In this document: one piece after another, positions 2-18,033 of the stretch | Numbering within the stretch: the stretch's first letter is position 1 | How the letters are laid out: each line of letters starts with the position of its first letter | Source of the DNA: an uncultured Candidatus Binatia bacterium | Lineage (GTDB): Bacteria; Desulfobacterota; Binatia; UBA9968; JAJDTQ01 | NCBI GenBank assembly: GCA_958295985.1 | Contig: OY282432.1 | Span: 2,513,001-2,577,000, forward strand | Length of the DNA stretch: 64,000 bases | Direction: 5' to 3' | Notes under the pieces: generated by a model | What the model was told of the DNA's origin: nothing | The model's input: only the letters and a program-made list of their open reading frames with translations | Databases searched by the model: none | Made by a program: the position numbers and the translations under genes

Positions 2-376
2 ACGGCCGGGGCCCTGGACGTACTCACCTGCATGGACGACCTCGTGCCCTACTTCGCCGTCAGCGTGGACGTGGCCGCGCGGGGGTTGGGCCCGCGGCTC
101 GGCCTGGAACTGTACCGCGCCCGGACCTGGTTTGCGGTCGATCGTACGGGGTGGCGCCCCCTGATCGCCCGGATCGAGGAGCAAGGCTGGTGCCTTCCCG
201 CGAAAGCCGAAGGGCTGCGGCGCTGGCCGAGTATCGAACGGCTGCTGGGCGACGGAGAGATGTACGTCGTCCGCCAGGGTATCAACCACGTCAAGGTCGT
301 CATCGAACGGGGCGCCCGAACGGTGGCGAAGGCCTACGTCGGCATGAGCGTGCTTCCGTACCGATCGGACCTCTAA
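2..376 (+). CDS. C-terminal part of the unrecognised RiPP-locus protein (copy A), cut by window edge
   Basis: The reading frame is open from base 2 and ends in TAA at 374-376, so only about the last 124 residues of the gene are in the window. It is closely similar over its length to the C-terminal third of the complete gene at 2042-3157. Shared blocks are 'SVDVAA', 'LGPRLGLELYRAR', 'GWCLP.KA.GLR.W' and 'RQGINHVKVV', followed by 'AKAY.GM'. The ATG at base 32 is an internal Met, not a start. I do not recognise the family. It lies directly upstream of a peptide-precursor operon, and the other complete copies occupy equivalent places, so a role in maturing the peptides is inferred from context only. 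Confidence 0.8.
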   Translation, partial: TAGALDVLTCMDDLVPYFAVSVDVAARGLGPRLGLELYRARTWFAVDRTGWRPLIARIEEQGWCLPAKAEGLRRWPSIERLLGDGEMYVVRQGINHVKVVIERGARTVAKAYVGMSVLPYRSDL

Positions 377-627: not shown

Positions 628-915
628 ATGAGCACCAAGACGATGAGTGAACTGCGCGAGCAGGTGGTCGAGAGGGCGACCATGGACGAGGAGTTCCGGG
701 CGCGGTTGCTCGCCGAGCCCAAGGCCGCGATCGAGGAAGAGTTGGGCGTCAAGATTCCCGACGGTTTCACCGTCGAGGTGCACGAGGATGTCGAGGACAC
801 CAGCCATCTGGTGCTCCCGCCGCCCGCGGCGCTCGGCGAGAGCGAGTTGGGCCAGGTGGCGGGTGGCAGGGGCAGCGGCAACGACGAAGCGATCACGTTC
901 TGGGACGACTTCTAG
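628..915 (+). CDS. NHLP-leader RiPP precursor 1
   Basis: This 95-residue precursor has the nitrile-hydratase-like leader fold signature (FRARLLAEPKAAIEEELG, then 'TVEVHED', then 'HLVLPPP') and ends at 'QVAGG', the site expected for a C39 protease. That leaves an 80-residue leader and the core RGSGNDEAITFWDDF. There is no Cys, so thioether or thiazole chemistry is unlikely. Its leader begins MSTKTMSELREQ and belongs with precursor 3 to one subfamily, distinct from the METAKEMQ subfamily. It starts at ATG 628 behind AAGGAGG (616-622), 77 bases below the promoter -10 box. Precursor 2 follows after 51 bases and is probably co-transcribed. Confidence 0.9.
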   Translation: MSTKTMSELREQVVERATMDEEFRARLLAEPKAAIEEELGVKIPDGFTVEVHEDVEDTSHLVLPPPAALGESELGQVAGGRGSGNDEAITFWDDF

Positions 916-966: not shown

Positions 967-1248
967 ATGGAAACGGCAAAGGAAATGCAGGCGAAGATCG
1001 TGGGCAAGGCGAGCGAGGACGCGGACTTCCGCGCCCGGCTGCTGAGCGATCCGAAGGGGGCGATCGAGCAGGAGTTGGGCGTCACCATTCCGGCGTCCCT
1101 GTCGGTCGAGGTCCACGAAGAGAGCGGCGCGACCGCGCATCTGGTTCTTCCCCCCGACAGCAAGCTGAGCGAGGGCGAGATGCAGACGGTCGCCGGCGGT
1201 ATGTTTGGCTTGGTCAACGAACAGCATCGCCGGGAGCTCAATTGGTAA
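967..1248 (+). CDS. NHLP-leader RiPP precursor 2
   Basis: This 93-residue precursor is the first of the METAKEMQ subfamily, whose 78-residue leader is nearly invariant across ten genes in the locus. Cleavage after 'TVAGG' would release MFGLVNEQHRRELNW, a 15-residue core ending in Asn-Trp. The ribosome site is AAGGAGGAGC before ATG. No promoter of its own is visible in the 51-base gap after precursor 1. It is followed by a stub of the unrecognised large gene (1306-1410). Confidence 0.9.
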   Translation: METAKEMQAKIVGKASEDADFRARLLSDPKGAIEQELGVTIPASLSVEVHEESGATAHLVLPPDSKLSEGEMQTVAGGMFGLVNEQHRRELNW

Positions 1249-1581: not shown

Positions 1582-1866
1582 ATGAGCACCAAGACGATGA
1601 GTGAACTGCGCGAGCAGGTGGTCGAGAGGGCGACCATGGACGAGGAGTTCCGTGCGCGGTTGCTCGCCGAGCCCAAGGCCGCGATCGAGGAAGAGTTGGG
1701 CGTCAAGATTCCCGACGGTTTCACCGTCGAGGTGCACGGGGATGTCGAGGACACCAGCCATCTGGTGCTTCCGCCGCCCACGACGCTCGGCGAGGGCGAG
1801 CTGGGCCAGGTGGCGGGTGGGCACCACGACAACGAACTGACCGCGCGGGAACTGTTCTGGAGCTAG
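1582..1866 (+). CDS. NHLP-leader RiPP precursor 3
   Basis: This 94-residue precursor has a leader that differs from precursor 1 at only a few positions (for example VHGD for VHED). The core after 'QVAGG' is entirely different: HHDNELTARELFWS. The abrupt switch from near-identity to no similarity at the GG site is the signature of core diversification. It starts behind AAGGAGG and is followed, after a hairpin repeat at about 1936-1960, by the complete unrecognised gene at 2042. Confidence 0.9.
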   Translation: MSTKTMSELREQVVERATMDEEFRARLLAEPKAAIEEELGVKIPDGFTVEVHGDVEDTSHLVLPPPTTLGEGELGQVAGGHHDNELTARELFWS

Positions 1867-1960: not shown

Positions 1961-2041
1961 GGGGCTCGGACAGGCTCATGGGAGCCGTCTCCGGCGGGCT
2001 TCGGGTAGACTGCCGTGGCGTCGAAAATGGAGGTCCGCACC

Positions 2042-3157
2042 GTGAGCGTGGATGACGGCCGGCCGGCGGAGAATCGGGGTGACACCTTCGCGTCGGTCCT
2101 CCGCGGGTGCCGTACCCTGTTCTCTACTGCGCTGATGGACTCCGGGGGCTGGGAGCGTCTGCTGGCCCGGGCACGGTCGCTGCCCCGTTCCGTGATCGAT
2201 GCCCATTTCGGTTTCGAGTTCCATCTCGGGGAAGCGAGTGGGGACGCTGATCTCTTCGTCGTCGTGATTCCCGGATCGGACCTGTCGCGGCACTACATCC
2301 GCGAGGGCGCGCGCGCCGAGCGGGGGTCGGCGGCTGCGGCCCTCGGGGCCGGGCTTCGGGAACAGGCCGCGGACCCGGCATCGTACCTCGGCCGTTCCGT
2401 GGTCGGGACGGTGCTGGAGTACGACCTTTCCGGGCTTGCGCCCGGGGGGGAGGCGCCGGCCCCCGGGGTCTTCCTCGCGCCGCGGCACTCCGCCCCCGGG
2501 TCCCGTGAGGGGTTCGTCGAACATTCGGATCCCTCGGGCCTGCTCGCGGCCCTTGCCGCGATGGTGGGTTGGAGTGGCCACGAGGAGATCCTCCGAAAGG
2601 TGGAGCGCGTCTTCGCGGCTCTGCCGGAAACCGGCTACGTGTTCCAGGCGGGAGCCCTCCCGGGGCGTTCTCCGAGGGCGTTCCGGATCCTTCTCAAGGG
2701 CATCGCCAAGGAGGAGGTCCCCGACCTGCTGGAGCGGTTGGAATGGCCCGGCCCGACGGCCGGGGCCCTGGACGTACTCACCTGCATGGACGACCTCGTG
2801 GCCTACTTAGCCGTCAGCGTGGACGTGGCCGCGCAGGGGTTGGGTCCGCGGCTCGGCCTGGAACTGTACCGCGCCCGGAAATGGTTTGCGGTCGATCGTA
2901 CGGGGTGGAATCCCTTCATTGCCCGGATCGGGGACAAGGGCTGGTGCCTGCCTTCGAAAGCGGCCGGGCTGCGGAGTTGGCCGGGGACCGAACGGCTGCT
3001 CGACGGCGAAGAGCTGTACCTCGTCCGCCAGGGCATCAACCACGTCAAGGTCGTGGTCCAACGAGGCGTCCGAACGGTGGCGAAAGCGTACGCCGGCATG
3101 GACGTACGCCCGCAAGGGTCGAACCTGCGTCCGCGGTCCGCGGACGGGATGGGCTGA
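2042..3157 (+). CDS. Unrecognised RiPP-locus protein, candidate peptide-modifying enzyme (copy C)
   Basis: About 371 residues, soluble, with no signal peptide or membrane segment. I do not recognise the family. Features conserved with the paralogue at 7572-8714 are: 'GGW.RLLA' near the N-terminus; 'EF.LGE' and 'ADLFVVV.PGS.L.RH.IR.G' around residues 55-85; 'EYDL' around 130; 'GALPGR.PRA.R' around 210; 'VDVAA', 'LPRLGLELY' and 'GWCL..KA.GL' toward the C-terminus; and a terminal 'GINHVK', then 'AKAYAGM'. The alternating strand-like segments could be a beta-barrel fold such as ABBA prenyltransferases, but this is only a guess. The start is chosen as GTG 2042 because GGAGG lies 8 bases upstream and the same context precedes the next gene. 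In-frame starts at 2015 or 2027 have no ribosome site. It probably heads an operon with 3233 and 3562. Confidence 0.8.
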   Translation: MSVDDGRPAENRGDTFASVLRGCRTLFSTALMDSGGWERLLARARSLPRSVIDAHFGFEFHLGEASGDADLFVVVIPGSDLSRHYIREGARAERGSAAAALGAGLREQAADPASYLGRSVVGTVLEYDLSGLAPGGEAPAPGVFLAPRHSAPGSREGFVEHSDPSGLLAALAAMVGWSGHEEILRKVERVFAALPETGYVFQAGALPGRSPRAFRILLKGIAKEEVPDLLERLEWPGPTAGALDVLTCMDDLVAYLAVSVDVAAQGLGPRLGLELYRARKWFAVDRTGWNPFIARIGDKGWCLPSKAAGLRSWPGTERLLDGEELYLVRQGINHVKVVVQRGVRTVAKAYAGMDVRPQGSNLRPRSADGMG

Positions 3158-3232: not shown

Positions 3233-3565
3233 ATGAGCACGGACGGTCATCCACCCGCGGGAGACGCAGGCGGCGGCTCCGTCCCCGAAGCGTCCGCGCG
3301 TCCCTCGGGCGCCGATGCCGGGGGGATCGACCGCCGGGCGCCCCTGAGCGCGGCGGAGGTGCGGAGTCTGTTGCGGGACGGGACGCCCATCGTGGGTCTC
3401 GCCGACCGCCGGGCCTTCCAGCAGGAAGCGGAGTACCTTCGGGCCCTGTCCGCGGACAACTCCAGGCCCGTTCCGCGTATCAGCATCAAGATCGTCCCGG
3501 ATCCGGACTCCGCAGTGGAGGAAGGGGAACCCGCGGAGACATCGGGAAAGAAGGGTGAAGCATGA
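3233..3565 (+). CDS. Small hypothetical protein coupled to the JmjC oxygenase
   Basis: 110 residues with no recognised domain. The first 35 residues are Gly/Ala/Pro/Ser-rich and probably disordered. Residues about 37-90 could form a small fold (LSAAEVRSLLRDGTPIVGL, then 'RAFQQEAEYLRAL'), and the tail is acidic. ATG follows GGAGG, in the same sequence context as the start at 2042. Its TGA overlaps the ATG of the next gene by four bases (ATGA), so the two products are likely made together. A substrate-delivery or partner role for the oxygenase is possible. It has neither the NHLP leader nor a GG site, so it is not another precursor of that type. Confidence 0.7.
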   Translation: MSTDGHPPAGDAGGGSVPEASARPSGADAGGIDRRAPLSAAEVRSLLRDGTPIVGLADRRAFQQEAEYLRALSADNSRPVPRISIKIVPDPDSAVEEGEPAETSGKKGEA

Positions 3566-4926
3566 CCGACTCGGCCACGCCGGAAGGGCCCGGCGCGGAA
3601 GCGCACCCTGCGGAGACCGTCCCCCGCGGCGCCGCCCCGGTCGAGGAGCTGGTTGCCGGTGCGGAGCGGTACGGACCGGCGTCCGGGTTCGAGGGCCTGG
3701 TCCGGCCCCTCGCCACGCAGGAGTTCCTGGACACCCGCTACCGAGACAAACGTCCGGTGCTGTTCCGGGCAAAGGGTCCGCGTTTCGCGTCTCTTTGCAC
3801 CTGGGAGGCGCTCAACGCGCTGCTGTCCTCGGGTGCGTGGCGCAACCGGATGTCTCTCGTGCAGCAGGGCCGGTCGGTGGCCGAGCATTACTACACGACG
3901 CCGCAGTTCGGCCACGGATGGAGAGGGAGAAGAGGAGGTGCGAACGAACGCCACATCGACGACGGGCGGCTGGCGACCTTCCTCCGCAAGGGCGCCAGCA
4001 TGGTCATGTCGGGCATCAACGAGGTTCATCTCCCTCTCCGCCCCGTAACCGACGCAATCGAGGAGACCCTGGGCGGCTACACCGGGATCAACCTCTACGC
4101 CTCCTGGGTGGCGACCCCCGGCTTTGCCGTGCACTGGGACGACCACGACGTGTTCGTGCTGCAGGTCGCCGGCGCAAAGCGTTGGCAGATCTACGGCGAA
4201 ACGCGGCGCTTTCCGCTCAACCGGGATTCGGAACCGAACGTGGAGCCGCCTCGGGAGATGGTGTGGAGCGAGGTGATCCGGTCGGGTGACGTCCTCTACA
4301 TCCCGCGGGGGTGGTGGCACGATGCCCGCACCCAGGACGACGAAGGGAAGGATGGCTCGGGTAGCCTGCACCTCACCTGCAGCGTCCTCCCGGTGACCGG
4401 GCTCGACTTCATGGAGTGGCTCTCCGGCAGGCTCGCTCGCCACGAGACCTTTCGCCGCGACCTCCCCCACCCCACGGACGGGACCGGCGATGCCCACTAC
4501 GCGGCGCTCAGGGACCTGATCCTCGGGGAACTGCAGGGCGACGTCGGACGGAAGTTCCGCGGCTATATGCGCTCCACCTGGTCCGAGAGCCCCCGGATGA
4601 GCCTTGGCCCCTGCATCGATCCCTGGAAGTCTCCGGATTGGGAGCGTTACGAAATCCGGCTCCGGGGCGACCGGTGCGCGACCCTGGAGCGGAACGCCGG
4701 TGGGGAGGCGGTGCTGGAGGCCAACGGCTATCGCTGGACCTTCGACGGCCGCTGCGTGGAGTTGCTGGCTCCACTCCTGCGGGGCGGGAGCGTGCGCGTC
4801 GGGGCTTTCCGGGAAACGGTCGTCGAGGGAGCTTCGGCAGAGTTGGCCGATGAGTTCCTCAAGCTGCTGGTCATGCGGGGGGTCGCGTACGCCGTGCCGC
4901 CGGCCTCCGGGCCGGAGCATGGGTGA
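3562..4926 (+). CDS. JmjC/cupin-4 Fe(II)/2-oxoglutarate oxygenase (RoxA/YcfD-like)
   Basis: 454 residues. The JmjC core has the full ribosomal-oxygenase motif H-x-D-x-x-D-V-F-x-x-Q, here VHWDDHDVFVLQ with H191 and D193. The distal metal ligand H253 lies in 'YIPRGWWHDA'. About 180 C-terminal residues resemble the helical and winged-helix part of this family. Known relatives hydroxylate Arg or His side chains of ribosomal proteins. Here the gene sits inside a peptide-precursor array and is coupled to a small protein, so hydroxylation of the peptide cores is the likely role. That is inference, and the residue attacked is unknown. It is the last gene of the 2042-4926 run and is followed by a fresh promoter. 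Confidence 0.88.
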   Translation: MTDSATPEGPGAEAHPAETVPRGAAPVEELVAGAERYGPASGFEGLVRPLATQEFLDTRYRDKRPVLFRAKGPRFASLCTWEALNALLSSGAWRNRMSLVQQGRSVAEHYYTTPQFGHGWRGRRGGANERHIDDGRLATFLRKGASMVMSGINEVHLPLRPVTDAIEETLGGYTGINLYASWVATPGFAVHWDDHDVFVLQVAGAKRWQIYGETRRFPLNRDSEPNVEPPREMVWSEVIRSGDVLYIPRGWWHDARTQDDEGKDGSGSLHLTCSVLPVTGLDFMEWLSGRLARHETFRRDLPHPTDGTGDAHYAALRDLILGELQGDVGRKFRGYMRSTWSESPRMSLGPCIDPWKSPDWERYEIRLRGDRCATLERNAGGEAVLEANGYRWTFDGRCVELLAPLLRGGSVRVGAFRETVVEGASAELADEFLKLLVMRGVAYAVPPASGPEHG

Positions 4927-5127: not shown

Positions 5128-5424
5128 ATGGCAACGGCAAGGGAAATGCAGGCGAGGGTCGTGAGCAAGGCGAGCGAGGACGCGGACTTCCGCGCCCGGC
5201 TGCTGAGCGATCCGAAGGGGGCGATCGAGCAGGAGTTGGGCGTCACCATTCCAGCGTCCCTGTCGGTCGAGGTTCACGAAGAGAACGACGCGGCTGCGCA
5301 CTTGGTTCTTCCTCCCGACAGCAAGCTGAGCGAAAGCGACCTGCAGGCGGTCGCCGGCGGCGCCCGCTACGACTCAAACGGTGCGCGTGTCGATACGGAT
5401 TGGATTATCACGGCCGATTGGTAA
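5128..5424 (+). CDS. NHLP-leader RiPP precursor 4
   Basis: 98 residues with the METAKEMQ-subfamily leader (here MATAREMQ). After 'AVAGG' comes the longest core of this subfamily, ARYDSNGARVDTDWIITADW, with two Trp and a terminal Asp-Trp. The ribosome site is GAGGAGGA. It opens the second block of precursors, downstream of the oxygenase gene. Confidence 0.9.
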   Translation: MATAREMQARVVSKASEDADFRARLLSDPKGAIEQELGVTIPASLSVEVHEENDAAAHLVLPPDSKLSESDLQAVAGGARYDSNGARVDTDWIITADW

Positions 5425-5588: not shown

Positions 5589-5864
5589 ATGGAAACGGCA
5601 AAGGAAATGCAGGCAAGGGTCGTGGGCAAGGCGGCTGAGGACGCGGACTTCCGCGCCCGGCTGTTGAGCGATCCGAAGGGGGCGATCGAGCAGGAGTTGG
5701 GCGTCACCATTCCAGCGTCCCTGTCGGTCGAGGTCCACGAAGAGAGCGGCGCGGCTGCGCATCTGGTTCTTCCCCCCGACAGCAAGCTGAACGAAAGCGA
5801 CCTGCAGGCGGTCGCCGGGGGCGCTCGTCCCCGTGGACAGGAGTGGGACCCCCGCACCTGGTAA
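5589..5864 (+). CDS. NHLP-leader RiPP precursor 5
   Basis: 91 residues. The METAKEMQ leader ends in 'AVAGG' and the core is ARPRGQEWDPRTW, with two Trp and the last one terminal. The start is ATG 5589 behind AAAGGAGCGAACT. An in-frame ATG at 5556 lies upstream of that ribosome site and would add non-leader residues, so it is not used here. Confidence 0.9.
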   Translation: METAKEMQARVVGKAAEDADFRARLLSDPKGAIEQELGVTIPASLSVEVHEESGAAAHLVLPPDSKLNESDLQAVAGGARPRGQEWDPRTW

Positions 5865-6047: not shown

Positions 6048-6338
6048 GTGGAAACAGCGAAGGAAATGCGTGCGAAGATCGTGGGCAAGGCGACTGAGGA
6101 CGCGGATTTTCGCGCCCGGCTGCTCAGTGATCCGAAGGGAACGATCGAGTCGGAGTTGGGCGTCACGATTCCTGCGTCCCTGTCGATCGAGGTTCACGAA
6201 GAGAGCGGCATGACCGCGCATCTGGTTCTTCCCCCGGACAGCAGGCTGAGCGAAAGCGATCTGCAGGCGGTCGCCGGCCAGGCGAGGATAAAACAGATAT
6301 GGGCCGGGCTCGATAGGCTCATTCGCAATTGGGGGTAA
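6048..6338 (+). CDS. NHLP-leader RiPP precursor 6, probably decaying or atypical
   Basis: 96 residues. The leader is conserved, but three features are abnormal. The start codon is GTG rather than ATG, the AGGAGG present before the sister genes is missing ('tgagacgaaacaaaccaGTG'), and the processing site reads 'VAGQ' instead of 'VAGG'. The core would be ARIKQIWAGLDRLIRNWG, which still carries two Trp and a near-terminal Asn-Trp. It lies directly after the deleted gene copy at 5909-6008, whose loss probably removed its translation signal. It may be poorly translated and uncleavable. Confidence 0.75.
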   Translation: METAKEMRAKIVGKATEDADFRARLLSDPKGTIESELGVTIPASLSIEVHEESGMTAHLVLPPDSRLSESDLQAVAGQARIKQIWAGLDRLIRNWG

Positions 6339-6521: not shown

Positions 6522-6785
6522 ATGGCAACGGCAAAGGAAATGCAGGCGAGGATCGTGGGCAAGGCGGCCGAGGACTCGGACTTCCGCGCCCGGCTGCTGA
6601 GCGATCCAAAGGGGGCGATCGAGCAGGAGTTGGGCGTCACCATTCCTGGGTCCCTGTCGGTCGAGGTCCACGAAGAGAGCGGCGCGGCTGCGCATCTGGT
6701 TCTTCCCCCCGCCAGCAACCTGAGCGAAGGCGATCTGCAGGCGGTCGCCGGGGGCGGGGATTGGAATATCACCTCTGACTGGTAA
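6522..6785 (+). CDS. NHLP-leader RiPP precursor 7
   Basis: 87 residues. The leader has Gly in place of Ala in 'TIPGSLS', a variant shared only with precursors 8 and 9, so these three are the most recent duplicates. The core after 'AVAGG' is GDWNITSDW, only nine residues, joint shortest with precursor 14, with two Trp. It starts behind GAGGAGGA. Confidence 0.9.
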   Translation: MATAKEMQARIVGKAAEDSDFRARLLSDPKGAIEQELGVTIPGSLSVEVHEESGAAAHLVLPPASNLSEGDLQAVAGGGDWNITSDW

Positions 6786-6924: not shown

Positions 6925-7215
6925 ATGGAAACGGCAAAGGAAATGCAGGCGAAGATCGTGGGCAAGGCGGCCGAAGACTCGGACTTCCGCGCCCGGCTGC
7001 TGAGCGATCCGAAGGGGGCGATCGAGCAGGAGTTGGGCGTCACCATTCCTGGGTCCCTGTCGGTCGAGGTCCACGAAGAGAGCGGCGCGGCTGCGCATCT
7101 GGTTCTTCCCCCCGCCAGCAAGCTGAGCGAAAGCGACCTGCAGGCGGTTACGGGCGGGACCTTTACTAATTACGATTACGGTACGGCGCGCATCTCACTA
7201 ACCGACAATTGGTAA
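6925..7215 (+). CDS. NHLP-leader RiPP precursor 8
   Basis: 96 residues. The leader is nearly identical to precursor 9, but the processing site reads 'VTGG'. The core is TFTNYDYGTARISLTDNW, 18 residues, with a single terminal Trp. The promoter region is a remnant: the stretch 'gtgagccggtatcctgggtacagg' corresponds to the second promoter type but lacks TTGACA. Transcription therefore probably comes from the precursor 7 promoter. Confidence 0.9.
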   Translation: METAKEMQAKIVGKAAEDSDFRARLLSDPKGAIEQELGVTIPGSLSVEVHEESGAAAHLVLPPASKLSESDLQAVTGGTFTNYDYGTARISLTDNW

Positions 7216-7253: not shown

Positions 7254-7535
7254 ATGGAAACGGCAAAGGAAATGCAGGCGAGGGTCGTGGGCAAGGCGGC
7301 TGAGGACTCGGACTTCCGCGCCCGGCTGCTGAGCGATCCGAAGGGGGCGATCGAGCAGGAGTTGGGCGTCACCATTCCTGGGTCCCTGTCGGTCGAGGTC
7401 CACGAAGAGAGCGGCGCGGCTGCGCATCTGGTTCTTCCCCCCGCCAGCAAGCTGAGCGAAAGCGACCTGCAGGCGGTCGCCGGCGGCGCCGTGATGGGCG
7501 ACATAGGGAGAATCTGGAGGGTGCAGGATTGGTAA
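7254..7535 (+). CDS. NHLP-leader RiPP precursor 9
   Basis: 93 residues, starting 38 bases after precursor 8 with ATG 7254 behind AAAGGAGCGAACC. An in-frame upstream start (7209) would add residues with no leader similarity. The core is AVMGDIGRIWRVQDW, with two Trp and terminal Asp-Trp. The complete unrecognised gene follows after 36 bases, so precursors 7-9 and that gene probably form one operon. Confidence 0.9.
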   Translation: METAKEMQARVVGKAAEDSDFRARLLSDPKGAIEQELGVTIPGSLSVEVHEESGAAAHLVLPPASKLSESDLQAVAGGAVMGDIGRIWRVQDW

Positions 7536-7571: not shown

Positions 7572-8714
7572 ATGACGTCGGACCCGTTTCTCGCAGTTGA
7601 GATGACCGAGCCGGTCTCGCGGTGTGGTACATCAACGCCTGATGAGCGCCGCGCACCGGGGACGGAGCTCGCGGAGGTCTTCCGTCCACTGATACCGCAC
7701 GCTTTGCTCGACGGTCCCGGATGGGATCGGTTGCTGGCCTGTGCCGCGGAGTTGCCTGACGCCGGGTTGGCGACGCCCCTCGGTTGCGAGTTTCGGCTCG
7801 GAGAGGAAACGCCTGCCGCGGACCTGTTCGTGGTGGTCAGACCGGGGAGCCCGCTTGCGCGGCACTTCATCCGCAGGGGCGAAGCCGCGCCTCCGGGCTC
7901 GACGGCCGCGGCGCTGGCCCGGTACCTTGTCGAGATCGGGCAAGCCGGATCTGCATTGCACGGTTGCATCGCCGGGACCATGCTCGAGTACGACCTGGCC
8001 GAGACGCCGGCCGGCCGGCGGCCGGAGCCGGGCGTGTTTCTGAAGGTGCGGCTCGGGGAGGAGCCCGAGCCGCATGACCGCCCGCAGCCCTTGCCGGTCG
8101 CGGCGCTGGCGGACGCGGTCGGCTGGACCGATGATGGCGAGGTGCGGCAGTCGGTGGCGCGGGTGCTGGCGGCGTTGCCGCCGGGCGGCAGGGTCGCCCA
8201 CATCGGAGCGTTACCGGGCCGGGCGCCGCGGGCGGTGCGGCTGGTGGTCCAGGGGCTCGGGCACGACGAGATCGGCAGGGTGCTGGAGCGGTTGGGCCGG
8301 CGCGGGTCGATCGGCCCGGTGACGGAAGTCCTGACCGACCTCGGGGAGGTGTTGCCCCGGTTCCGGCTGGCAGTGGACGTGGCCGCCACGGGGCTGTTGC
8401 CCCGGCTCGGCCTGGAGCTGTATCACGCGGGATCGTGGAGCAACGAACCCGACGGTTGGCTGATCACGGGGCGGAGCGACTGGCGGCCGGTGGTGGAGCG
8501 GCTGGCGCTGCGTGGTTGGTGCCTGGCGGCGAAGGCGCAGGGGCTGCTTCAGTGGTGTGCGCTCGACAAGATGTACGACCGCCGGGGCGTGTTCCTCGTC
8601 TACAAGGGGATCAACCACGTCAAGCTCACGGTCACGGAGGCCGGGGTCGATGCCAAGGCATACGCGGGCATGACCTGCTCCCTCGCGCAGGACCAACCCG
8701 GTTCGGGGTGCTGA
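7572..8714 (+). CDS. Unrecognised RiPP-locus protein, candidate peptide-modifying enzyme (copy F)
   Basis: 380 residues, a clear but diverged paralogue of the protein at 2042-3157. It has the same order of blocks: 'GPGWDRLLA', 'CEFRLGE', 'ADLFVVVRPGSPLARHFIR', 'LEYDLAE', 'GALPGRAPRAVR', 'AVDVAATGLLPRLGLELY', 'GWCLAAKAQGL', 'YKGINHVKL', 'AKAYAGM'. It has about 25 extra N-terminal residues that are not conserved. I do not recognise the family. The invariant charged and aromatic positions (E-x-D in EYDL, K-A-Y near the end, N-H in GINHVK) are candidates for an active site. It lies among METAKEMQ precursors, whereas copies A and C lie beside the MSTKTM precursors, suggesting each copy serves a precursor subfamily. 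No clear ribosome site precedes ATG 7572. Confidence 0.8.
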   Translation: MTSDPFLAVEMTEPVSRCGTSTPDERRAPGTELAEVFRPLIPHALLDGPGWDRLLACAAELPDAGLATPLGCEFRLGEETPAADLFVVVRPGSPLARHFIRRGEAAPPGSTAAALARYLVEIGQAGSALHGCIAGTMLEYDLAETPAGRRPEPGVFLKVRLGEEPEPHDRPQPLPVAALADAVGWTDDGEVRQSVARVLAALPPGGRVAHIGALPGRAPRAVRLVVQGLGHDEIGRVLERLGRRGSIGPVTEVLTDLGEVLPRFRLAVDVAATGLLPRLGLELYHAGSWSNEPDGWLITGRSDWRPVVERLALRGWCLAAKAQGLLQWCALDKMYDRRGVFLVYKGINHVKLTVTEAGVDAKAYAGMTCSLAQDQPGSGC

Positions 8715-8900: not shown

Positions 8901-9173
8901 ATGGAAACGGCAAAGGAAATGCAGGCGAAGATCGTGGGCAAGGCGGCTGAGGACTCGGACTTCCGCGCCCGGCTGCTGAGCGATCCGAAGGGGGCGATAG
9001 AGCAGGAGTTGGGCGTCACCATTCCAGCGTCTCTGTCGATCGAGGTTCACGAAGAGAGCGGCGCGACCGCGCATCTGATTCTTCCTCCCGACAGCAAACT
9101 GAGCGAGGGCGAATTGCAGACGGTCGCCGGCGGTTTTGAGAGACATGAGGGGTTCTACAACATTAATTGGTAA
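8901..9173 (+). CDS. NHLP-leader RiPP precursor 10
   Basis: 90 residues, METAKEMQ leader, core FERHEGFYNINW after 'TVAGG', aromatic-rich with a terminal Asn-Trp. The ribosome site is AAGGAGGAGC. It opens the third promoter block, with precursors 11 and 12 following at short spacing. Confidence 0.9.
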   Translation: METAKEMQAKIVGKAAEDSDFRARLLSDPKGAIEQELGVTIPASLSIEVHEESGATAHLILPPDSKLSEGELQTVAGGFERHEGFYNINW

Positions 9174-9238: not shown

Positions 9239-9526
9239 ATGGAAACGGCAAAGGAAATGCAGGCGAAGATCGTGGGCAAGGCGGCTGAGGACTCGGACTT
9301 CCGCGCCCGGCTGCTGAGCGATCCGAAGGGGGCGATAGAGCAGGAGTTGGGCGTCACCATTCCAGCGTCTCTGTCGGTCGAGGTTCACGAAGAGAGCGAC
9401 GCGGCTGCGCATCTGGTTCTTCCCCCCGACAGCAACCTGAGCGAAGGCGACCTGCAGGCGGTCGGCGGCGGGGGTCAGTCGAGGCTTTTTGGGCAGAATG
9501 TCGACACAGCCATTAGCGACTGGTAA
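9239..9526 (+). CDS. NHLP-leader RiPP precursor 11
   Basis: 95 residues from ATG 9239 behind AAAGGAGC. An upstream in-frame start (9167) is outside the leader family. The leader ends 'AVGGG' and the core is GQSRLFGQNVDTAISDW. The core is recognisably related to that of precursor 12 (shared LFG, VD, SDW), the one case in the array where two cores still look homologous. Confidence 0.9.
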   Translation: METAKEMQAKIVGKAAEDSDFRARLLSDPKGAIEQELGVTIPASLSVEVHEESDAAAHLVLPPDSNLSEGDLQAVGGGGQSRLFGQNVDTAISDW

Positions 9527-9583: not shown

Positions 9584-9874
9584 ATGGAAACGGCAAAGGA
9601 AATGCAGGCGAGGATCGTGGGCAAGGCGGCCGAGGACGCGGACTTCCGCGCCCGGCTGCTGAGCGATCCGAAGGGGGCGATCGAGCAGGAGTTGGGCGTC
9701 ACCATTCCAGCGTCTCTGTCGATCGAGGTTCACGAAGAGAGCGGCGCGGCTGCGCATCTGGTTCTTCCCACCGACAGCAACCTGGGCGAAGGCGACCTGC
9801 AGGCGGTCGCCGGCGGCAGGGGTCAGGCGATGCTTTTTGGGCGGCCTGTCGACTCAGTCACTAGCGACTGGTAA
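9584..9874 (+). CDS. NHLP-leader RiPP precursor 12
   Basis: 96 residues, core RGQAMLFGRPVDSVTSDW after 'AVAGG'. It differs from precursor 11 by scattered substitutions that keep the terminal Ser-Asp-Trp, and looks like a recent tandem duplicate whose core has begun to diverge. The leader carries LPTDS in place of LPPDS. The ribosome site AAAGGAGTGAACC sits in the same 57-base spacer type as precursor 11. Confidence 0.9.
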   Translation: METAKEMQARIVGKAAEDADFRARLLSDPKGAIEQELGVTIPASLSIEVHEESGAAAHLVLPTDSNLGEGDLQAVAGGRGQAMLFGRPVDSVTSDW

Positions 9875-10792: not shown

Positions 10793-13738
10793 CTAGGTCA
10801 TTTGGCGGCGCACCAGGTTGCGGAAGGGGCCGTCGATCTCGATCAGTTCGTTGAACGTGCCGGTCTGGGCCACTTGGCCATCCTGCAGCACGTAGATGCG
10901 GTTGGCCATGCGGATGGTGGACAGGCGGTGGGCCGTCACGAACCGGGTGACGGCAAGTTCGGCCACGTTGTGCATCACTTGCGCCTGGCTCTTGTTGTCG
11001 AGCCAGTTGGTGGCCTCGTCGAGAAACAGGACGCTGGGGTCCCGGACCAGCGCCGCGGCCAGCATGATCCGCTGGATCTGCCCGCCCGAGAAAGCCGCCG
11101 ACTTGTCTCCGGTGACCGTGTACATCTGCATGGGCATGGCGGCGATGTCTTCGTCCACCGAAGCCATGCGGGCCGCCCGCCAGGCGTCCTCCTCGGTGAG
11201 CTCTCCGGACACTCCGATGATGTTTTCGAGCACGGTGCCGGGGTGTAGCGACACGTCCTGCACCACCATGCTGATCCTGCTGCGCACCGCTCGCTTGTTG
11301 AGGCGAGCGAGATCGCGCCCGTCGTAGTAAACGGCCCCCGACATCGGTGTCTCGAGTCCGAGGGCGAGCCGGAACAGGGTGCTCTTGCCCGCCCCGGATT
11401 CTCCGACGATGGCCACGAACTCGCCGGCGCGGGCGTGGATCGAGACGTCCTGCAGGACCAGGGGACCGTCCTCGGAATAACGGAAGCTCACGTGGTCCAC
11501 GTGGAGGTCGCCGCTGAGCTCCGGCGGCGGCTCGCCTTTGGCGCCCGTCTCCGGCTTCGACTCCAGGATCGGAGTCACCTGCTCGTACGCGGGCATGACC
11601 GCGGCGAGCGCGGAAAACGAAATGCCGAGCCTGGCCACCGCCGCATAGAACACCATGAACGCCGCGTAGATGGTGAGGAAGTCCCCGGTGGGAAGGGTCG
11701 CACGGCCGTCGTGCACCGCCGCCGTGAACACCGCTGCCGCGGCCAGCAGGGGCGCGGCAGCCAGGAAGGCGATCAGATGCTCGTCCAGCCTGCCGAGCCG
11801 CATCTCGGTCTGCTTCTGTTCCTGGTAGTTCTGCGCCCACAAGGCGAACCCGATGCCTTCGGATCCGGTGGACCGCAGCTTGCTGAAGCCGTTCAGCAGT
11901 TGCAGCAACCGGCCTGCAAGCTGTCGTGAGATGGTGAGCAGGCGCCGTTGGTGAGGTAGCTGGAGGATGCCGATGGCCGCGGTCACCCCCAGGGAGGACA
12001 GTCCCAGCCCCAGACCGAGCCAGCCGATCTCGGTGTTGTAGACGAACAACAGCACGAACGTCGGCAGGAGGAAGATCACCGACAGGAGAGCGTTGCCGAC
12101 CACGCCTGAGACCTGATCGCGCAGTCCCTGGAAGGCCATGGTGCGCATGGTGAGGTCACCGGATGAGAAGCGGCGAAAGAACCGCTGCGGCAGGCCGAGC
12201 AGCCGGTCCCAGAGCGCCGCGCCCACGCGGGCCGCGGCTACGGCCTCCAGCCGCATCAGGGCCGTTCCCTGGAGGACTTGCAGGAGCCCGGTGAGAATGG
12301 CCAGCAGGACCAGGGACAGCGAGAGCTCCAGGAGTTGCCAGCCGGACCCGCTCGGGATCACGCGGTTCACGAGGGCGCCGAGCAGGATGGGCGGCATCAG
12401 CATCATGAGGCCCACCAGCAGTCCGGCCAGGATGAAGCGCGCCAGGTCCTTGCCGAGCCCGCGGAACGCGAAGCGGAACAGGGCGCCCGAGCGGACCGTT
12501 TCCTCCTGCGGCAACGCGCGGTAGAAGAAGTACGCTTCGGAAGCGAGGTCCCGGGCCAAGTCCCCGTCCACCCGCTCCGAACGGCCCGTCTCCGGGTCGA
12601 TCATCCGGTAACGGCCCGACACGCCCGGAATCAGCGCCACCGGGTTCCCGGACTCGCGCCGGAACGCCAGCATCGCGCCGCTGTCGCCGCGCCACCAACG
12701 GTCGTCGGCAGCGAGCTTGACCTTGCGCGCGCGGACCCCGGACACGCGCTGGATCTCCGTCAGGTCGTGGGTCTCTTCCTCCATTCCCCTCCGGCGGGGT
12801 GGAGCGCGGAACCGAATGCCTTCGTGGCTGCCCACCAGATCCAGGGCGCTCAGCAGGCCCGATCCGTCGTCCCTCTTCTCCACCGGGGAACGGCGCGCCT
12901 TCAGGACGCCGATCAGGTTGTCGCGAGCGCGCTCCTCGCTCCGGCTCTGGCGTTGGACTTGGGCTCGCTGCAAGTTGGCCATGTCCACGAGTATCAGGCG
13001 CCGGTTGAGTTCCTCCACGGACAGCGCCAGTCGATGGAACTCGGCCAGAGCGGAGAACAGCAGGCCATCGGCTTCGAGCGCCGCGGACGTGGTGACGGTC
13101 AGTCGGGAGGGGTGGAACAGCCGTATCCAGCTTTTGACCGACACGGGGATGAAGCCCGGACCGCTGCCGGTGAGCTCGCCGGTGTCGAGGAAAGCCGCGT
13201 TCCCCACCGGTGTCGAGACCCAGAGTACGCCGTGCCGGGTGGACAGCACGTTTTCGGCCACGACCTCGTCGTCCTTGCCCGCGGTCAGGAAGCGCTCGGG
13301 GCGCGGGCGCGGCTCCACCTCCTGGGCGATTGCCGCGGCGACGTCGGTAATCCAGGTATCGACTTGCTCGGTCAGGGGTCCGGCAACCCCGGGGCCGGTC
13401 AAAGCGGTCCGGGGGACGCAGCGGAGCTCGGTGTCGGGGAGCCCCTTGGCGATGTACACCGACATGGAGATATCCTCGTCGTTGTCGACGCCGAAGATCC
13501 ACCTGCCGGCGCCGGCGCGCAGGAGTTGCTTGAAGTCCGATGCCTCCCCGTCCGCAGAACGCTGGACGGCGAATATGTCCATCGCGCCCCTGACCACGTA
13601 CCATACCGTCCCGGGATCGGACAGGAGGACGGGCCGGTTGCCTCCGCCGGTGAACGTCTCGCCCTGCGTGAGCGCGATTTCTTCGAGTCTGCCCAGTGCC
13701 GGCTTCTGCATGTCCCTCGTTCCGTGCTTCCCCTTCAA
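10793..13738 (-). CDS. NHLP-type peptide export ABC transporter, permease/ATPase (ABC2 type)
   Basis: About 980 residues. The N-terminal third is a non-peptidase regulatory region typical of NHLM-type ABC2 exporters (VWYVVRGAMDIFAV suggests a cyclic-nucleotide-binding-like beta fold). A six-helix ABC membrane domain lies at roughly 430-700 and a C-terminal nucleotide-binding domain has Walker A GESGAGKST, signature FSGGQ, Walker B LFLDEAT and switch His in VTAHRLS. There is no C39 peptidase. The listed start is TTG 13738, which overlaps the upstream gene's stop (TTGA) and has GGAG 5 bases before it. ATG 13711 (MQKPALG) is the main alternative. With the next two genes it forms the secretion operon for the precursors. 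Confidence 0.9.
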   Translation of the reverse strand: MKGKHGTRDMQKPALGRLEEIALTQGETFTGGGNRPVLLSDPGTVWYVVRGAMDIFAVQRSADGEASDFKQLLRAGAGRWIFGVDNDEDISMSVYIAKGLPDTELRCVPRTALTGPGVAGPLTEQVDTWITDVAAAIAQEVEPRPRPERFLTAGKDDEVVAENVLSTRHGVLWVSTPVGNAAFLDTGELTGSGPGFIPVSVKSWIRLFHPSRLTVTTSAALEADGLLFSALAEFHRLALSVEELNRRLILVDMANLQRAQVQRQSRSEERARDNLIGVLKARRSPVEKRDDGSGLLSALDLVGSHEGIRFRAPPRRRGMEEETHDLTEIQRVSGVRARKVKLAADDRWWRGDSGAMLAFRRESGNPVALIPGVSGRYRMIDPETGRSERVDGDLARDLASEAYFFYRALPQEETVRSGALFRFAFRGLGKDLARFILAGLLVGLMMLMPPILLGALVNRVIPSGSGWQLLELSLSLVLLAILTGLLQVLQGTALMRLEAVAAARVGAALWDRLLGLPQRFFRRFSSGDLTMRTMAFQGLRDQVSGVVGNALLSVIFLLPTFVLLFVYNTEIGWLGLGLGLSSLGVTAAIGILQLPHQRRLLTISRQLAGRLLQLLNGFSKLRSTGSEGIGFALWAQNYQEQKQTEMRLGRLDEHLIAFLAAAPLLAAAAVFTAAVHDGRATLPTGDFLTIYAAFMVFYAAVARLGISFSALAAVMPAYEQVTPILESKPETGAKGEPPPELSGDLHVDHVSFRYSEDGPLVLQDVSIHARAGEFVAIVGESGAGKSTLFRLALGLETPMSGAVYYDGRDLARLNKRAVRSRISMVVQDVSLHPGTVLENIIGVSGELTEEDAWRAARMASVDEDIAAMPMQMYTVTGDKSAAFSGGQIQRIMLAAALVRDPSVLFLDEATNWLDNKSQAQVMHNVAELAVTRFVTAHRLSTIRMANRIYVLQDGQVAQTGTFNELIEIDGPFRNLVRRQMT

Positions 13739-15981
13739 CTCGACTCCACGAGTTGGTAGTACAGTCCGTCGGTGTCCCGCATCAACTCCTCGTGGGCGCC
13801 GCGCTGCACCTCGCGCCCGTGGTCGAGGACCACGATCAGATCACAGTCGCGGATGGTGCTCAGCCGATGGGCCACGATGAGACAGGTGCATCCCCGGCGC
13901 CGCAGGGCGTCGTCGATCCGGACCTCGGTGATGGTGTCGAGCGAGCAGGTCGCCTCGTCCAGGATCAGCACCGACGGGTTGTTGACCAGCGCGCGGGCGA
14001 TCTCCAGCCGCTGCCGCTGGCCGCCGCTGAAGTTGCGTCCTCCCTCGTCCACCGGCGCGTCGTACCCCAGCGGCCGGGAGATGATCTCCGCGTGGATGGT
14101 CGCGTCCTGCGCGGCCGCCACCAGGGTCTGGTCCGGCACCTCCGGGATCCACATGGTCAGGTTCTCGCGCACCGTGTCTCCGAACAGGAAGATGTGCTGG
14201 TCCACGAGCGACATGGAACTGGTCAGCACCTCGCGCGGAATGGCGTTGCGTGGGTGTCCGTCGATCAGGACCTCCCCCGACCACGGTTGCTGGAGGCCGG
14301 CCACCAACGACGACAGCGTGGACTTGCCGGACCCGCTGGGGCCGACGATGGCCACGCGCTGGCCGGGCTCGATGGTCAGGCTGAAGTCCTTGAGCAGGGG
14401 TTCGCGGTTTTTCTGGTAGCCGAAGGTGACGTTGCGCAGTTCGATCCGGCCTTTCAGTCGCAGCCGCCCGGCCAGCGTCGAGACCCGTTCCTGGGAGGGG
14501 TCGGCCGCCGGCTCGAAGGCGCGGTCCTCGGATGCGTCGAACACGTCGTCGAGGCGCTGCAGGTCCGCCTCCAGCATCTGGAACATGTCGGCGAACTGGA
14601 TGAAACGTCCAATGGGCTGCAGGAAGTTCACCGCCGCCATGTAGAAAGCCGTCAGCATGCCCACCGTCAGGTCGCCCGCCATCACCCGCCAGCCGCCGAC
14701 ACCGAGCACCGCGGCGTTGCCCAGGATCAGGAACAGGATGGGCAGGGCCGCGTTGACGTGGCCGAGCTCGGCGAACCGTTGCCGGGCGACCAGCTCCCGC
14801 GCCTGGTACCCGGTCCAGCGGGAGAAGAAGTCGTCCTCCGCGGCGGATGCCTGCAAGGTGTCGATCTTGCCGGCCCCGAACATGCCGATCCCGTACAGCA
14901 TGCCCTGTTCGCGTCTGAGTCTGCGGTTCTCGTCCACCCGCACCCGGGCCAGGACGCGCATGACCACTGCGCTGAGCGCACCCAGTCCGACGACCACGGC
15001 GGCGAGCAGCGGGTCGTACGCCAGCATGAGTCCAAGGAACGCCATGCTGGTGACGATCTCGATGGAGATGCCGACGAAGTGCCGCGTGGCCACGTCCGAG
15101 ACCATGTCGAGAAGCTGTATCCGGGAGGTCAGGTCGCCGGACAGGCGGTGCGTGAAGAACCCCATGGGAAGCCGGAACAGCCGGGCCATGAAGCGCGTGC
15201 CGTGGTCGATGGCGAGGCGCACGGCGAGCAGTCTGAGGCAGCGTTCCCGGAGCCAGGTAAGGAGGTAGAGCAGACCCGCGGCGCCCACGAGGCTCCCGGT
15301 CAGCACCCCGCTCCAGGACGGTTCGCGCCCGGACAGCACGAAGTCCACGAACAGACCCACCAGGAACGGCATGGCAAGGGAAGGCAGGCTCAGCAGCACC
15401 CCGCAGCACATGGCGAACGCGAGCGGCTCCTTGACGTCGCGCAGCCACGGCAGGATCCGGTACAGGAGACCGGGGCGGATGCCGCCCGGACTGAACTCGG
15501 GCTTCGGCTGGAACGTCAGCGTCACGCCCGTGAACGCCTGGTCGAACTCTTCCGCGCTGACCGCTCGGTGGCCGTTGGCCGGGTCGTTGATCAGGAACTG
15601 GTCCCCGCGGAAGCCTTCGAGGACGACGAAGTGGTTGAACTCCCAGAAGATGATCATCGGCAACGGCATGCCGCGGAGTTGCTTCGGCTGCCTGCGCCAT
15701 CCTCGGGTCTCGAGACCGTACCGCTGCGCCGCGCGGAAGATGTCGGCCGCGGTGCACCCGTCCCGTCCCACCGAGCACGCTTCCCGCAACTCCTCGATGG
15801 ATACCCAGCGCCCGAAGTGCGCAAGCACGATGCTGAGGCACGCCGCCCCACACTCGGTCTCGGTGAGTTGCAGCATCAGAGGCGTGCGCGCCCGGCGCCG
15901 CGTCGGCGCAACGCGCCCTCGCTTCAGCGTCTGGTTGCGGGAGGCGTTTCCCCGCACGTGGTCGGAGACGGTGGCAGGCAT
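13735..15981 (-). CDS. NHLP-type bifunctional C39 peptidase/ABC exporter (ABC1 type)
   Basis: About 748 residues. An N-terminal C39 peptidase has catalytic Cys44 in TECGAACL, His in NHFVVLEG and Asp in INDPANG. This is followed by an ABC transmembrane domain and an ATPase with Walker A GPSGSGKST, signature FSGGQRQR, Walker B LILDEAT and VAHRLS. It is expected to cut precursors after the GG that ends each leader and to export the released core. The start is ATG 15981, whose A is shared with the TGA of the upstream HlyD gene (TGATG). An open frame extends further upstream but lies inside that gene. The stop overlaps the start of the second exporter. Confidence 0.93.
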   Translation of the reverse strand: MPATVSDHVRGNASRNQTLKRGRVAPTRRRARTPLMLQLTETECGAACLSIVLAHFGRWVSIEELREACSVGRDGCTAADIFRAAQRYGLETRGWRRQPKQLRGMPLPMIIFWEFNHFVVLEGFRGDQFLINDPANGHRAVSAEEFDQAFTGVTLTFQPKPEFSPGGIRPGLLYRILPWLRDVKEPLAFAMCCGVLLSLPSLAMPFLVGLFVDFVLSGREPSWSGVLTGSLVGAAGLLYLLTWLRERCLRLLAVRLAIDHGTRFMARLFRLPMGFFTHRLSGDLTSRIQLLDMVSDVATRHFVGISIEIVTSMAFLGLMLAYDPLLAAVVVGLGALSAVVMRVLARVRVDENRRLRREQGMLYGIGMFGAGKIDTLQASAAEDDFFSRWTGYQARELVARQRFAELGHVNAALPILFLILGNAAVLGVGGWRVMAGDLTVGMLTAFYMAAVNFLQPIGRFIQFADMFQMLEADLQRLDDVFDASEDRAFEPAADPSQERVSTLAGRLRLKGRIELRNVTFGYQKNREPLLKDFSLTIEPGQRVAIVGPSGSGKSTLSSLVAGLQQPWSGEVLIDGHPRNAIPREVLTSSMSLVDQHIFLFGDTVRENLTMWIPEVPDQTLVAAAQDATIHAEIISRPLGYDAPVDEGGRNFSGGQRQRLEIARALVNNPSVLILDEATCSLDTITEVRIDDALRRRGCTCLIVAHRLSTIRDCDLIVVLDHGREVQRGAHEELMRDTDGLYYQLVESS

Positions 15982-16883
15982 CAGATGTCGGTGTTGGCCA
16001 GCAGCAGGGCCGCAGGGGACTGGCTCCCCAACACGATCCGCGCGCGTCCGCCGGCGCCGTCCGCAAGCGGCAGGCGCGACGGACCGTTCAGGACCAGCCG
16101 CAGCAGGTGTGCGGGCGTGGGCGTCGCCAGACCCAGGTCGGCAAGCCATTGCGGGGTGGCCACGGTCCCGGGGGATACCTCCAGGACACGGGCTTCCAAC
16201 CTGCTCGCGCCCGGTTGCTCGGGCAGCGTCACCCACACCTCCGCATCCATGCCCGCTTCGAGCTTCTCGGCGTCCTGTGCCGGTATGAAGGCCAGCGCCT
16301 GCCAATCATCCTCGGAACTGCCCAGGACCTGAGCCACGGTCTCGCCGGTGCGTACCGGCTGGCCCGGCACCAGACGGTGCGCCACGAGCCGGCCCCCATG
16401 CTGAGCCACGATCGATTCCGCGGCCCGAAACTCGATGGCTTCGATCTCGTTCCGCGCCGCGGTGAGCAACGCCGTCCGGAGTTCGGCAGCCGCGTCGCCC
16501 CGCATCCCGTCCTGGACGGCGTTCAGGATCCTCCCTGCGATCCGGGCCTGGCGCTCCGTTTCCGGGAGACGGACCCGGGCGAGGGTCTGTCCCGCCTCGA
16601 CGGTGTCTCCGACTTCGGCCAGGACCTCGATGACGTTGCCGGACACGGGGGATAGCACTGCGTGGCGTTCGCCCGGCTGAACCAGCACAGCCTTGACCGT
16701 ATGGCTGCGCTCCACGCTCCCGAAGATCCCCCAGGCGAGCAGCAGGAGAAGCGCCACGCCGAGCCCCGCCAGCACCATCCACTCGTGGGCGGCCGTGACC
16801 TGGAGCCGTTCGTCGAGGGGCTCTCCGCGCGCTTGGCGGGCGACGGCTTCCTCCCGGAAAATTTTGCTGTAGAACAAGGACAA
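15981..16883 (-). CDS. NHLP-system HlyD-type secretion adaptor
   Basis: About 300 residues: a short cytoplasmic N-terminus, one membrane span (VLAGLGVALLLLLAWGIFG), then a periplasmic biotinyl-lipoyl-like hairpin region and a beta-barrel, as in membrane-fusion proteins of peptide exporters. Translation probably starts at TTG 16883 (giving LSLFYSK), because GGGAGG lies 8 bases upstream. The longer reading to 16955 adds a basic, proline-rich stretch foreign to the family. It is the first gene of the exporter operon, with its stop codon overlapping the next start. It is divergent from the toroid-protein gene at 17020, so the shared 137-base gap should hold both promoters. Confidence 0.85.
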   Translation of the reverse strand: MSLFYSKIFREEAVARQARGEPLDERLQVTAAHEWMVLAGLGVALLLLLAWGIFGSVERSHTVKAVLVQPGERHAVLSPVSGNVIEVLAEVGDTVEAGQTLARVRLPETERQARIAGRILNAVQDGMRGDAAAELRTALLTAARNEIEAIEFRAAESIVAQHGGRLVAHRLVPGQPVRTGETVAQVLGSSEDDWQALAFIPAQDAEKLEAGMDAEVWVTLPEQPGASRLEARVLEVSPGTVATPQWLADLGLATPTPAHLLRLVLNGPSRLPLADGAGGRARIVLGSQSPAALLLANTDI

Positions 16884-16992
16884 GGTACCATCCTCCCGGA
16901 TACCCGCCGGCGCCGGACGCGCCTGCCTGCATGCCGGTCGGGTACGGTCGCACAACGACCGGCAGCAGAACCTGACGGGTTGCGTAACACAC

Positions 16993-17019: not shown

Positions 17020-18033
17020 GTGCAACGTTCACCTTACAGCGACGGCAGCGACGGCGCTATCCCGGCGCGGCTCCGAGAGGCGGTGTGCGGCGCCGTGGAC
17101 CGGGGGCTCGACTTTCTCCAGGCCTCCATCCGCGGCGACGGGGCATGGACCTCGCGGCTCTACCCGAGCCTCGATCTCAAGGGCTCGCCGAAAGAGGAGC
17201 AACCCCCCTTCGTGGCCGCTCTCGGCGCGCTCACCCTGGAGGTCTGCGACGACCCCAGGTCCCGAGCGGTCCGGGATCGGTCCGGAGAGTTCATCGTCCG
17301 GTCCATGAGCCATCCGGGCACGTGGCGCTACTGGCCGAACCTCCCGCGCGACCTCGACAGTCTCAGCATCTGTTCCCTGGCGATTCGGTGGCACCCCTGG
17401 GTGCTGTCTGCCCGGAACCTCGGACTCCTGCCCACCGCGCAAGACGATATGGGAAGGTTCAGGACCTGGCTCGCCCCGCCCAACGAAGGCAACGTCGCGG
17501 ACAGCGTGGTGAACGCCAACGTCGTCGGCTACCTTGCCGCGCAGGGCCGGAACGAGTTGGGCGCGCAGGCCGCGGCGTGGCTCGCCGGTCTGATCACGGA
17601 AGGGAACGCAGAGGGGACGTCCCATTATTACCCCGACGCCATGGACCTCTACGACGCCGTGGCCCGCGCCCGGCAGCGGGGCGTGCCCGCGTTTCAGGAC
17701 ATGGACTCTCGGCTCGGGGACCGGGTCCGCTCCCGACGCGGCGCCGACGGCGGGTACGGCGACACGCTGCGCACCGCACGCGCCCTTTCCGCACTGCACG
17801 TCCTGGAAGCCCCGCCGGAGGGTGAAGCGCTGTGGGCCACGCTGGAGCGAATCCTGAGCCGGCAACGCTCCGACGGAAGCTGGCCGGAGCACTGCTACTG
17901 GCAGGGACCCCTGCCGCCGAGACCGCCCACCGTTGGATTCGGATGCGCAATGCTCGACACCGCTTCGTGCGTCGAGGCCCTCGTCCGATCGGGCGCCGGC
18001 CCGGACGGCATGCGGTTCCCTTCGGACCGCTGA
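17020..18033 (+). CDS. Prenyltransferase/squalene-cyclase-like toroid protein
   Basis: 337 residues with the repeats of an alpha-alpha toroid: 'GLDFLQASIRGDGAWTS', 'GTWRYW', 'RRGADGGYGDTLRTARALSAL' and the QW-type motif 'RQRSDGSWPE'. These are seen in squalene-hopene cyclases, class II diterpene cyclases and protein prenyltransferase beta subunits. It is about half the length of a full squalene-hopene cyclase and shows no obvious DxDD catalytic motif, so it may be a single-domain relative rather than a terpene cyclase. Divergent from and adjacent to the exporter operon, it may act on the exported peptides. That is inference. GTG start without a clear ribosome site. Confidence 0.75.
   Translation: MQRSPYSDGSDGAIPARLREAVCGAVDRGLDFLQASIRGDGAWTSRLYPSLDLKGSPKEEQPPFVAALGALTLEVCDDPRSRAVRDRSGEFIVRSMSHPGTWRYWPNLPRDLDSLSICSLAIRWHPWVLSARNLGLLPTAQDDMGRFRTWLAPPNEGNVADSVVNANVVGYLAAQGRNELGAQAAAWLAGLITEGNAEGTSHYYPDAMDLYDAVARARQRGVPAFQDMDSRLGDRVRSRRGADGGYGDTLRTARALSALHVLEAPPEGEALWATLERILSRQRSDGSWPEHCYWQGPLPPRPPTVGFGCAMLDTASCVEALVRSGAGPDGMRFPSDR

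Follow-up and report, generated by a model that had tools for sequence, protein, structure and literature searches.

A JmjC oxygenase with a ribosomal-oxygenase fold and a coupled 110-residue protein in an NHLP peptide cluster: a candidate peptide hydroxylase

Within the window, the 64,000-nucleotide stretch of DNA analysed here, the gene of a JmjC oxygenase with the fold of the ribosomal oxygenases lies in a proteusin-type array of NHLP precursors, directly downstream of and overlapping the gene of a 110-residue protein (p110). The original prediction had proposed that an enzyme of this type was recruited to a peptide cluster, and there is good support for its recruitment to peptide tailoring; the gene is conserved together with NHLP clusters. 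On balance, we favour the reading that the JmjC protein is a peptide hydroxylase of this cluster, likely acting on cores with an FWDD motif, with p110 as a docking protein, a separate prenyltransferase, and export of the product. The enzyme would be an Fe(II)/2-oxoglutarate peptide hydroxylase recruited for the tailoring of NHLP RiPPs, and would add one or more hydroxyl groups to core side chains, perhaps Asp, of MSTKTM-type precursors (cores like ...AITFWDDF). An ABBA-type prenyltransferase would act on the core tryptophans as a separate enzyme, and the product would be exported by the NHLP transporters. The C-terminal winged helix of the oxygenase probably binds the leader strand or p110, and p110 probably links the oxygenase to a cyclase-like protein.

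The two open reading frames and their ATGA overlap were found where the original prediction had placed them (3233-3565 and 3562-4926; Table 1). In the Pfam search, the 454-aa protein matched PF08007 (JmjC_2) with an E value of 5e-25. The positions given earlier for its HxD...H Fe(II) triad, H191-x-D193 and H253, were correct, and the triad columns of the JmjC alignment hold the same residues in 26/26 aligned homologs. This alignment (A5) contains 26 of the 35 JmjC sequences; L006, L012, L017, L021, L028, L029, L033, L034 and L035 were omitted because they were incomplete, nearly duplicated another sequence or had an uncertain start. As had also been claimed, the oxygenase gene is single-copy while the large gene is not: there is one JmjC gene, and there are three copies of a 380-aa gene, one of them with an in-frame TAA.

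Table 1. Features of the window that bear on the proposed hydroxylase
Feature	Coordinates	Strand	Basis
3' part of third copy (in-frame TAA) of the 380-aa gene	32..376	+	
NHLP precursor, MSTKTM group, core GRGSGNDEAITFWDDF; putative JmjC substrate	628..915	+	TIGR03793, 2.1e-19
NHLP precursor, METAKEM group, core ending NW	967..1248	+	TIGR03793, 6.3e-21
NHLP precursor, MSTKTM group, core GHHDNELTARELFWS	1582..1866	+	core reading
380-aa protein, ABBA indole-prenyltransferase fold	2015..3157	+	AF2 model, Foldseek, VIA
110-aa partner protein p110	3233..3565	+	upstream homologs in L004-L008; no family match in Pfam or NCBIfam
ATGA overlap coupling the p110 and JmjC genes	3562..3565	+	
454-aa JmjC Fe(II)/2OG oxygenase, ribosomal-oxygenase fold, C-terminal winged helix	3562..4926	+	PF08007; fold; triad
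Six METAKEM-type NHLP precursors	5128-5424, 5589-5864, 6048-6338, 6522-6785, 6925-7215, 7254-7535	+	
Second intact copy of the ABBA-prenyltransferase-like gene	7572..8714	+	
Three more METAKEM-type NHLP precursors	8901-9173, 9242-9526, 9584-9874	+	
Two further NHLP precursors	10029-10358, 10446-10721	+	
NHLP export ABC transporter	10793..13738	-	TIGR03797, over cut-off
NHLP export ABC transporter with C39 peptidase	13735..16305	-	TIGR03796, over cut-off
HlyD-type NHLP secretion protein	15981..16955	-	TIGR03794, weak, below its cut-off
Squalene-cyclase-like protein	17020..18033	+	SQHop_cyclase_C, E 0.0011, below Pfam cut-off

The predicted RiPP setting was borne out by 18 NHLP precursors and the NHLP transporter genes. 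The 18 matches to TIGR03793 extend over about 13 kb of the contig, from 2510.6 to 2523.7 kb, with the window beginning at 2513.0 kb; genome-wide there are 22 such matches, 19 of which exceed the curated cut-off, and 18 of these lie in the array. Tryptophan occurs in all 18 cores and is the last residue of 10 of them; it is absent from the 1050 aa that make up the N-terminal 75 residues of 14 precursors. Binding of NHLP leaders by a YcaO enzyme, as described in the available part of PMC12455567, bears on the type of cluster only. Some cores are shared unchanged between genomes (FERHEGFYNINW in four, GDWNITSDW in three; window 8901-9173 and 6522-6785, and L004-L006) with JmjC proteins of about 72% identity, and thus almost 30% different, a sign that cores have been exchanged or strongly selected. 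On its upstream edge the array has an ORF, L003:16668-17426, which by eye resembles part of an ISL3-type transposase.

The fold was computed on an ortholog, that of locus L009, whose structure model was built from A5 and has a mean pLDDT of 79. Nearly the whole JmjC part of the model could be aligned with NO66 (VIA Z 24.1, 282 residues, 4.6 A), and its residues 73-484 were aligned with another NO66 chain, 4ccn (Z 23.9, 348 residues, 7.7 A); the Z values for MINA53 and YcfD were 23.5 and 19.3. E values from phmmer were 2.6e-15 for NO66, 3.5e-13 for MINA53 and 1e-6 for RoxA/YcfD. The closest solved relatives of the JmjC protein are thus NO66 and MINA53, not RoxA/YcfD, so that the placement with the ribosomal oxygenases (NO66/MINA53/YcfD) in the original prediction stands, with "RoxA-like" as a loose label. 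The JmjC protein shares with NO66, MINA53 and YcfD/RoxA the metal triad, the JmjC domain and the C-terminal winged helix, with most of the chain aligned; it differs in being 16-20% identical to NO66, MINA53 and YcfD, in lying in a peptide cluster and in being rare in its phylum.

The L009 model has the layout of ribosomal oxygenases, in which the JmjC domain is followed by a helical part and then by a C-terminal winged helix. The elements at its C-terminus come in the order bbb-aaa (E411-415, E420-425, E428-433, H434-445, H451-458, H464-476), which conforms to the RRE order as defined in the available text of PMC12710340. At the level of sequence, the evidence for an RRE is weak and two-sided. 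Five of the 26 JmjC members gave weak matches to PqqD (E up to 1; the best 0.0016, with 19.2 bits against a cut-off of 23.4), and the Pfam search of the JmjC protein of the window gave no PqqD match; ROXA-like_wH was matched by four of the 26 (best 0.00079), and there were matches to several general HTH families too.

A scan with one genome per species yielded 34 related JmjC loci. In the five nearest (L004-L008), all of them NHLP clusters, p110 lies directly upstream of the JmjC gene, and all six p110-bearing loci, the window included, have NHLP precursors as well as the 380-aa and cyclase-like genes nearby. The JmjC proteins of four of these five loci are 66-73% identical to that of the window over alignment A5, and that of L006 is 70% identical by tblastn. 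The check that had been proposed, whether the two-gene pair is kept in other NHLP loci, thus came out positive for 6/6 holders of the p110 family. The more distant JmjC gene of L009 (37-41% identical) is likewise accompanied by NHLP genes (a precursor, the two ABC transporters and HlyD); the 15 kb of this locus contain neither p110 nor the 380-aa gene nor a cyclase-like gene. NHLP matches are present in all nine genomes of the genus, so that the cluster type is common and the JmjC-p110 pair has been added to it irregularly. In the order of the window, p110 was found in none of the 34 other genomes. In the phylum sample, JmjC and p110 were each found in 1/395 genomes, and in a search of the class p110 was matched in 1/148, in every case the genome of the window itself. 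An ordinary ribosomal oxygenase that came to lie in the cluster by chance would share the fold of NO66, MINA53 and YcfD as this protein does, but it is a very improbable explanation: JmjC was found neither in the rest of the phylum sample (394 genomes, E 1e-15) nor in the 34 other genomes of the order (E 1e-30), and NHLP genes accompany all five relatives of 66-73% identity.

When 5326 ORFs of the loci were searched with a p110 profile, matches outside the window were found only directly 5' of five JmjC genes, and on this basis the p110 ORF is real and not due to chance. The conserved part comprises approximately residues 44-92 (...GGTPIVxLA..AFQQEA...PVPRISIKIVPDP...). In three loci p110 forms the C-terminal tail of the cyclase-like ORF (L004:8725-10008, 427 aa; L005:8710-10008; L006:8713-10008). 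This fusion, together with the position of p110 before JmjC in 6/6 loci, suggests that p110 may act as a docking protein between the oxygenase and the cyclase-like protein. An NHLP-leader-like domain is fused ahead of the cyclase-like domain in four loci from the same genus as the window (L082, L083, L084 and L085, in genomes G007, G006, G008 and G003), a hint that p110 may occupy the position of a recognition module. In L082-L084 the fusion gene is followed by a gene which by eye resembles an AlkB-type membrane hydroxylase.

Several further assignments for p110 were not supported. As a diverged NHLP leader, p110 could be aligned by hhalign over two beta-strand segments, but with a probability of 0.1 and an E value of 0.44; the NHLP profile scored the six p110 sequences at -3.8 to 0.9 bits, with no score for L007, and in a shuffle control on five sequences 27 to 743 of 1000 shuffles were as good. 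The N-terminal extension of the L009 protein looks by eye like a p110-JmjC fusion, but the p110 profile gave -2.7 bits and 3260 of 5000 shuffles were as good; this reading was rejected, and the L009-based model therefore says nothing on p110 docking. For equating the p110 motif with the LLLSVDP motif of acidobacterial peptides there is a resemblance at eye level only, with no support from the profile. In a joint MAFFT alignment with the JmjC proteins (A3), the p110 rows were misplaced and were discarded.

Small peptide genes also accompany the more distant JmjC homologs. Among the 28 loci L010-L037 there are 14, mostly from Acidobacteria, with a gene for an Asp-rich repeat peptide just upstream of JmjC (L010, L013-L017, L019, L021, L023-L025, L027, L030 and L031). 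These peptides have a leader-like start (SGLLLSVDPLQ...) followed by SDGTD/DADGTD repeats, and the five tested against NCBIfam matched no family. In L018 and L022 a peptide of 39-40 aa directly precedes JmjC. These arrangements suggest that the JmjC clade as a whole may act on small peptides. A third gene is Suc_Fer-like by Pfam in L014 (3e-23), and its group is present in 17 loci; the combination of Asp-rich peptide, JmjC and, often, a Suc_Fer-like gene is a candidate RiPP class. By analogy, p110 itself might be the substrate of the JmjC protein, and hydroxylated p110, or its cyclase-like carrier, the product or carrier. The gene order is the same as in the loci with Asp-rich peptides, where the upstream gene appears to be the substrate, and p110 has the conserved segment given above and is translationally coupled to JmjC. 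Nevertheless, we regard this as less likely: in L004 a 427-aa protein ends in p110, as do the similar ORFs of L005 and L006, p110 contains no known leader, and its profile misses the acidobacterial and actinobacterial peptides tested.

The 380-aa protein and its profile had no match in Pfam, NCBIfam or the PDB sequences, and it was identified by the fold search alone. An AF2 model (pLDDT 81, pTM 0.82) shows the repeated strand-strand-helix-helix barrel (ABBA), and the 50 Foldseek matches listed were aromatic/indole prenyltransferases throughout, the best being AmbP1 and IptA (E 3e-6 to 5e-6); with MpnD, the VIA Z value was 17.6 over 296 residues (4.2 A). Identity to the structural matches is about 10%. 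Six further genomes of the genus also have homologs of the 380-aa protein close to NHLP precursors. Together with the tryptophan in all cores and the precedents PalQ and MppC (see below), the ABBA fold indicates that the cluster probably makes Trp-prenylated peptides, to which the JmjC step would be an extra decoration.

Candidate substrates were sought among the core tails of the precursors that two leader queries had found. The core GRGSGNDEAITFWDDF belongs to the first precursor after JmjC in L004, L005 and L006; it is found at 628-915 in the window and is repeated at L003:18606. In L007 a related core, ...DEAITFWDDINGPTYIH, lies just before p110, and in the stretch seen of L008 there is one precursor, without FWDD. 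FWDD cores were thus found in 5/6 loci with JmjC and p110 and in 0/6 relatives that have the 380-aa gene and lack JmjC. The latter, six genomes of the same genus that also lack p110, show nine precursors; their cores include FGGWSDMSDW, MFDGWGNDW and LCCCW, and FWDD occurs in none of them. Fisher's test gives 0.015 for this comparison with kinship ignored, three of the positives being closely related and all six negatives belonging to one genus; with such few and non-independent counts, the association is to be taken as a pattern and not as a probability. Our best guess, based on gene order in a small number of genomes, some of them close relatives, is that precursors with cores like ...AITFWDDF are the substrate of the JmjC protein. 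The original prediction had left it between all precursors and the MSTKTM group alone, and gene order favours the latter. For a JmjC protein that serves every Trp-containing core, hydroxylating the Trp or the prenyl group, it can be said that there is one JmjC gene for 18 array precursors with Trp in all 18 cores. However, relatives lacking JmjC retain the prenyltransferase-like gene, and their cores are of the NDW/SDW and CCCW types, so that these cores do not need JmjC, and the FWDD cores track it; we therefore consider service to all cores quite improbable.

Hydroxylation of a RiPP core by a JmjC enzyme and JmjC-RRE fusions have already been published. By the descriptions available (PMC12707348, PMC12257519), BipG and PbsQ of the biphenomycin RiPP pathways are JmjC (cupin-like) ornithine hydroxylases, and thus JmjC-domain hydroxylases that act on a RiPP core; to these features the cluster of the window adds NHLP leaders, the p110 partner and a prenyltransferase-like gene. 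PMC12710340 reports PF08007-RRE fusions that have bacterial homologs in RiPP-like contexts and share the PF08007 domain and the bbb-aaa winged helix; its available part names no NHLP case, partner protein or precursor, whereas the window has all three. PalX, an NHLP precursor prenylated by PalQ on a C-terminal Trp (PMC10853753), is similar in its NHLP leader, its short core ending in Trp and its prenyltransferase gene. However, PalQ belongs to the isoprenoid-synthase superfamily and not to the ABBA fold of the 380-aa protein, and the three genes described for the cluster in the available text include no JmjC. MppC (PMC12715784) is, like the 380-aa protein, of ABBA type, and acts on Trp of a long-leader RiPP, a lanthipeptide with a Nif11 leader; its system is a lanthipeptide cluster for which the available text mentions no JmjC, in contrast to the NHLP precursors and JmjC gene of the window. 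Among the matches listed in open-licence PMC, no paper was found by title or start of abstract on JmjC in an NHLP cluster, on p110 or on the Asp-rich peptides.

A broader proposal, which we put forward tentatively as a possibility, is that of a widespread family of RiPP hydroxylases with a ribosomal-oxygenase fold, in which the winged helix would be a leader reader of RRE type. This family would work with NHLP precursors and p110 here and with Asp-rich peptides and a Suc_Fer-like protein in Acidobacteria, and its product here would be hydroxylated, ABBA-prenylated Trp proteusins. The role of the winged helix of ribosomal oxygenases is poorly understood. If the proposal is true, this domain would gain a testable job, the reading of leader peptides, and oxidative tailoring would be tied to a proteusin cluster that also contains a prenyltransferase fold.
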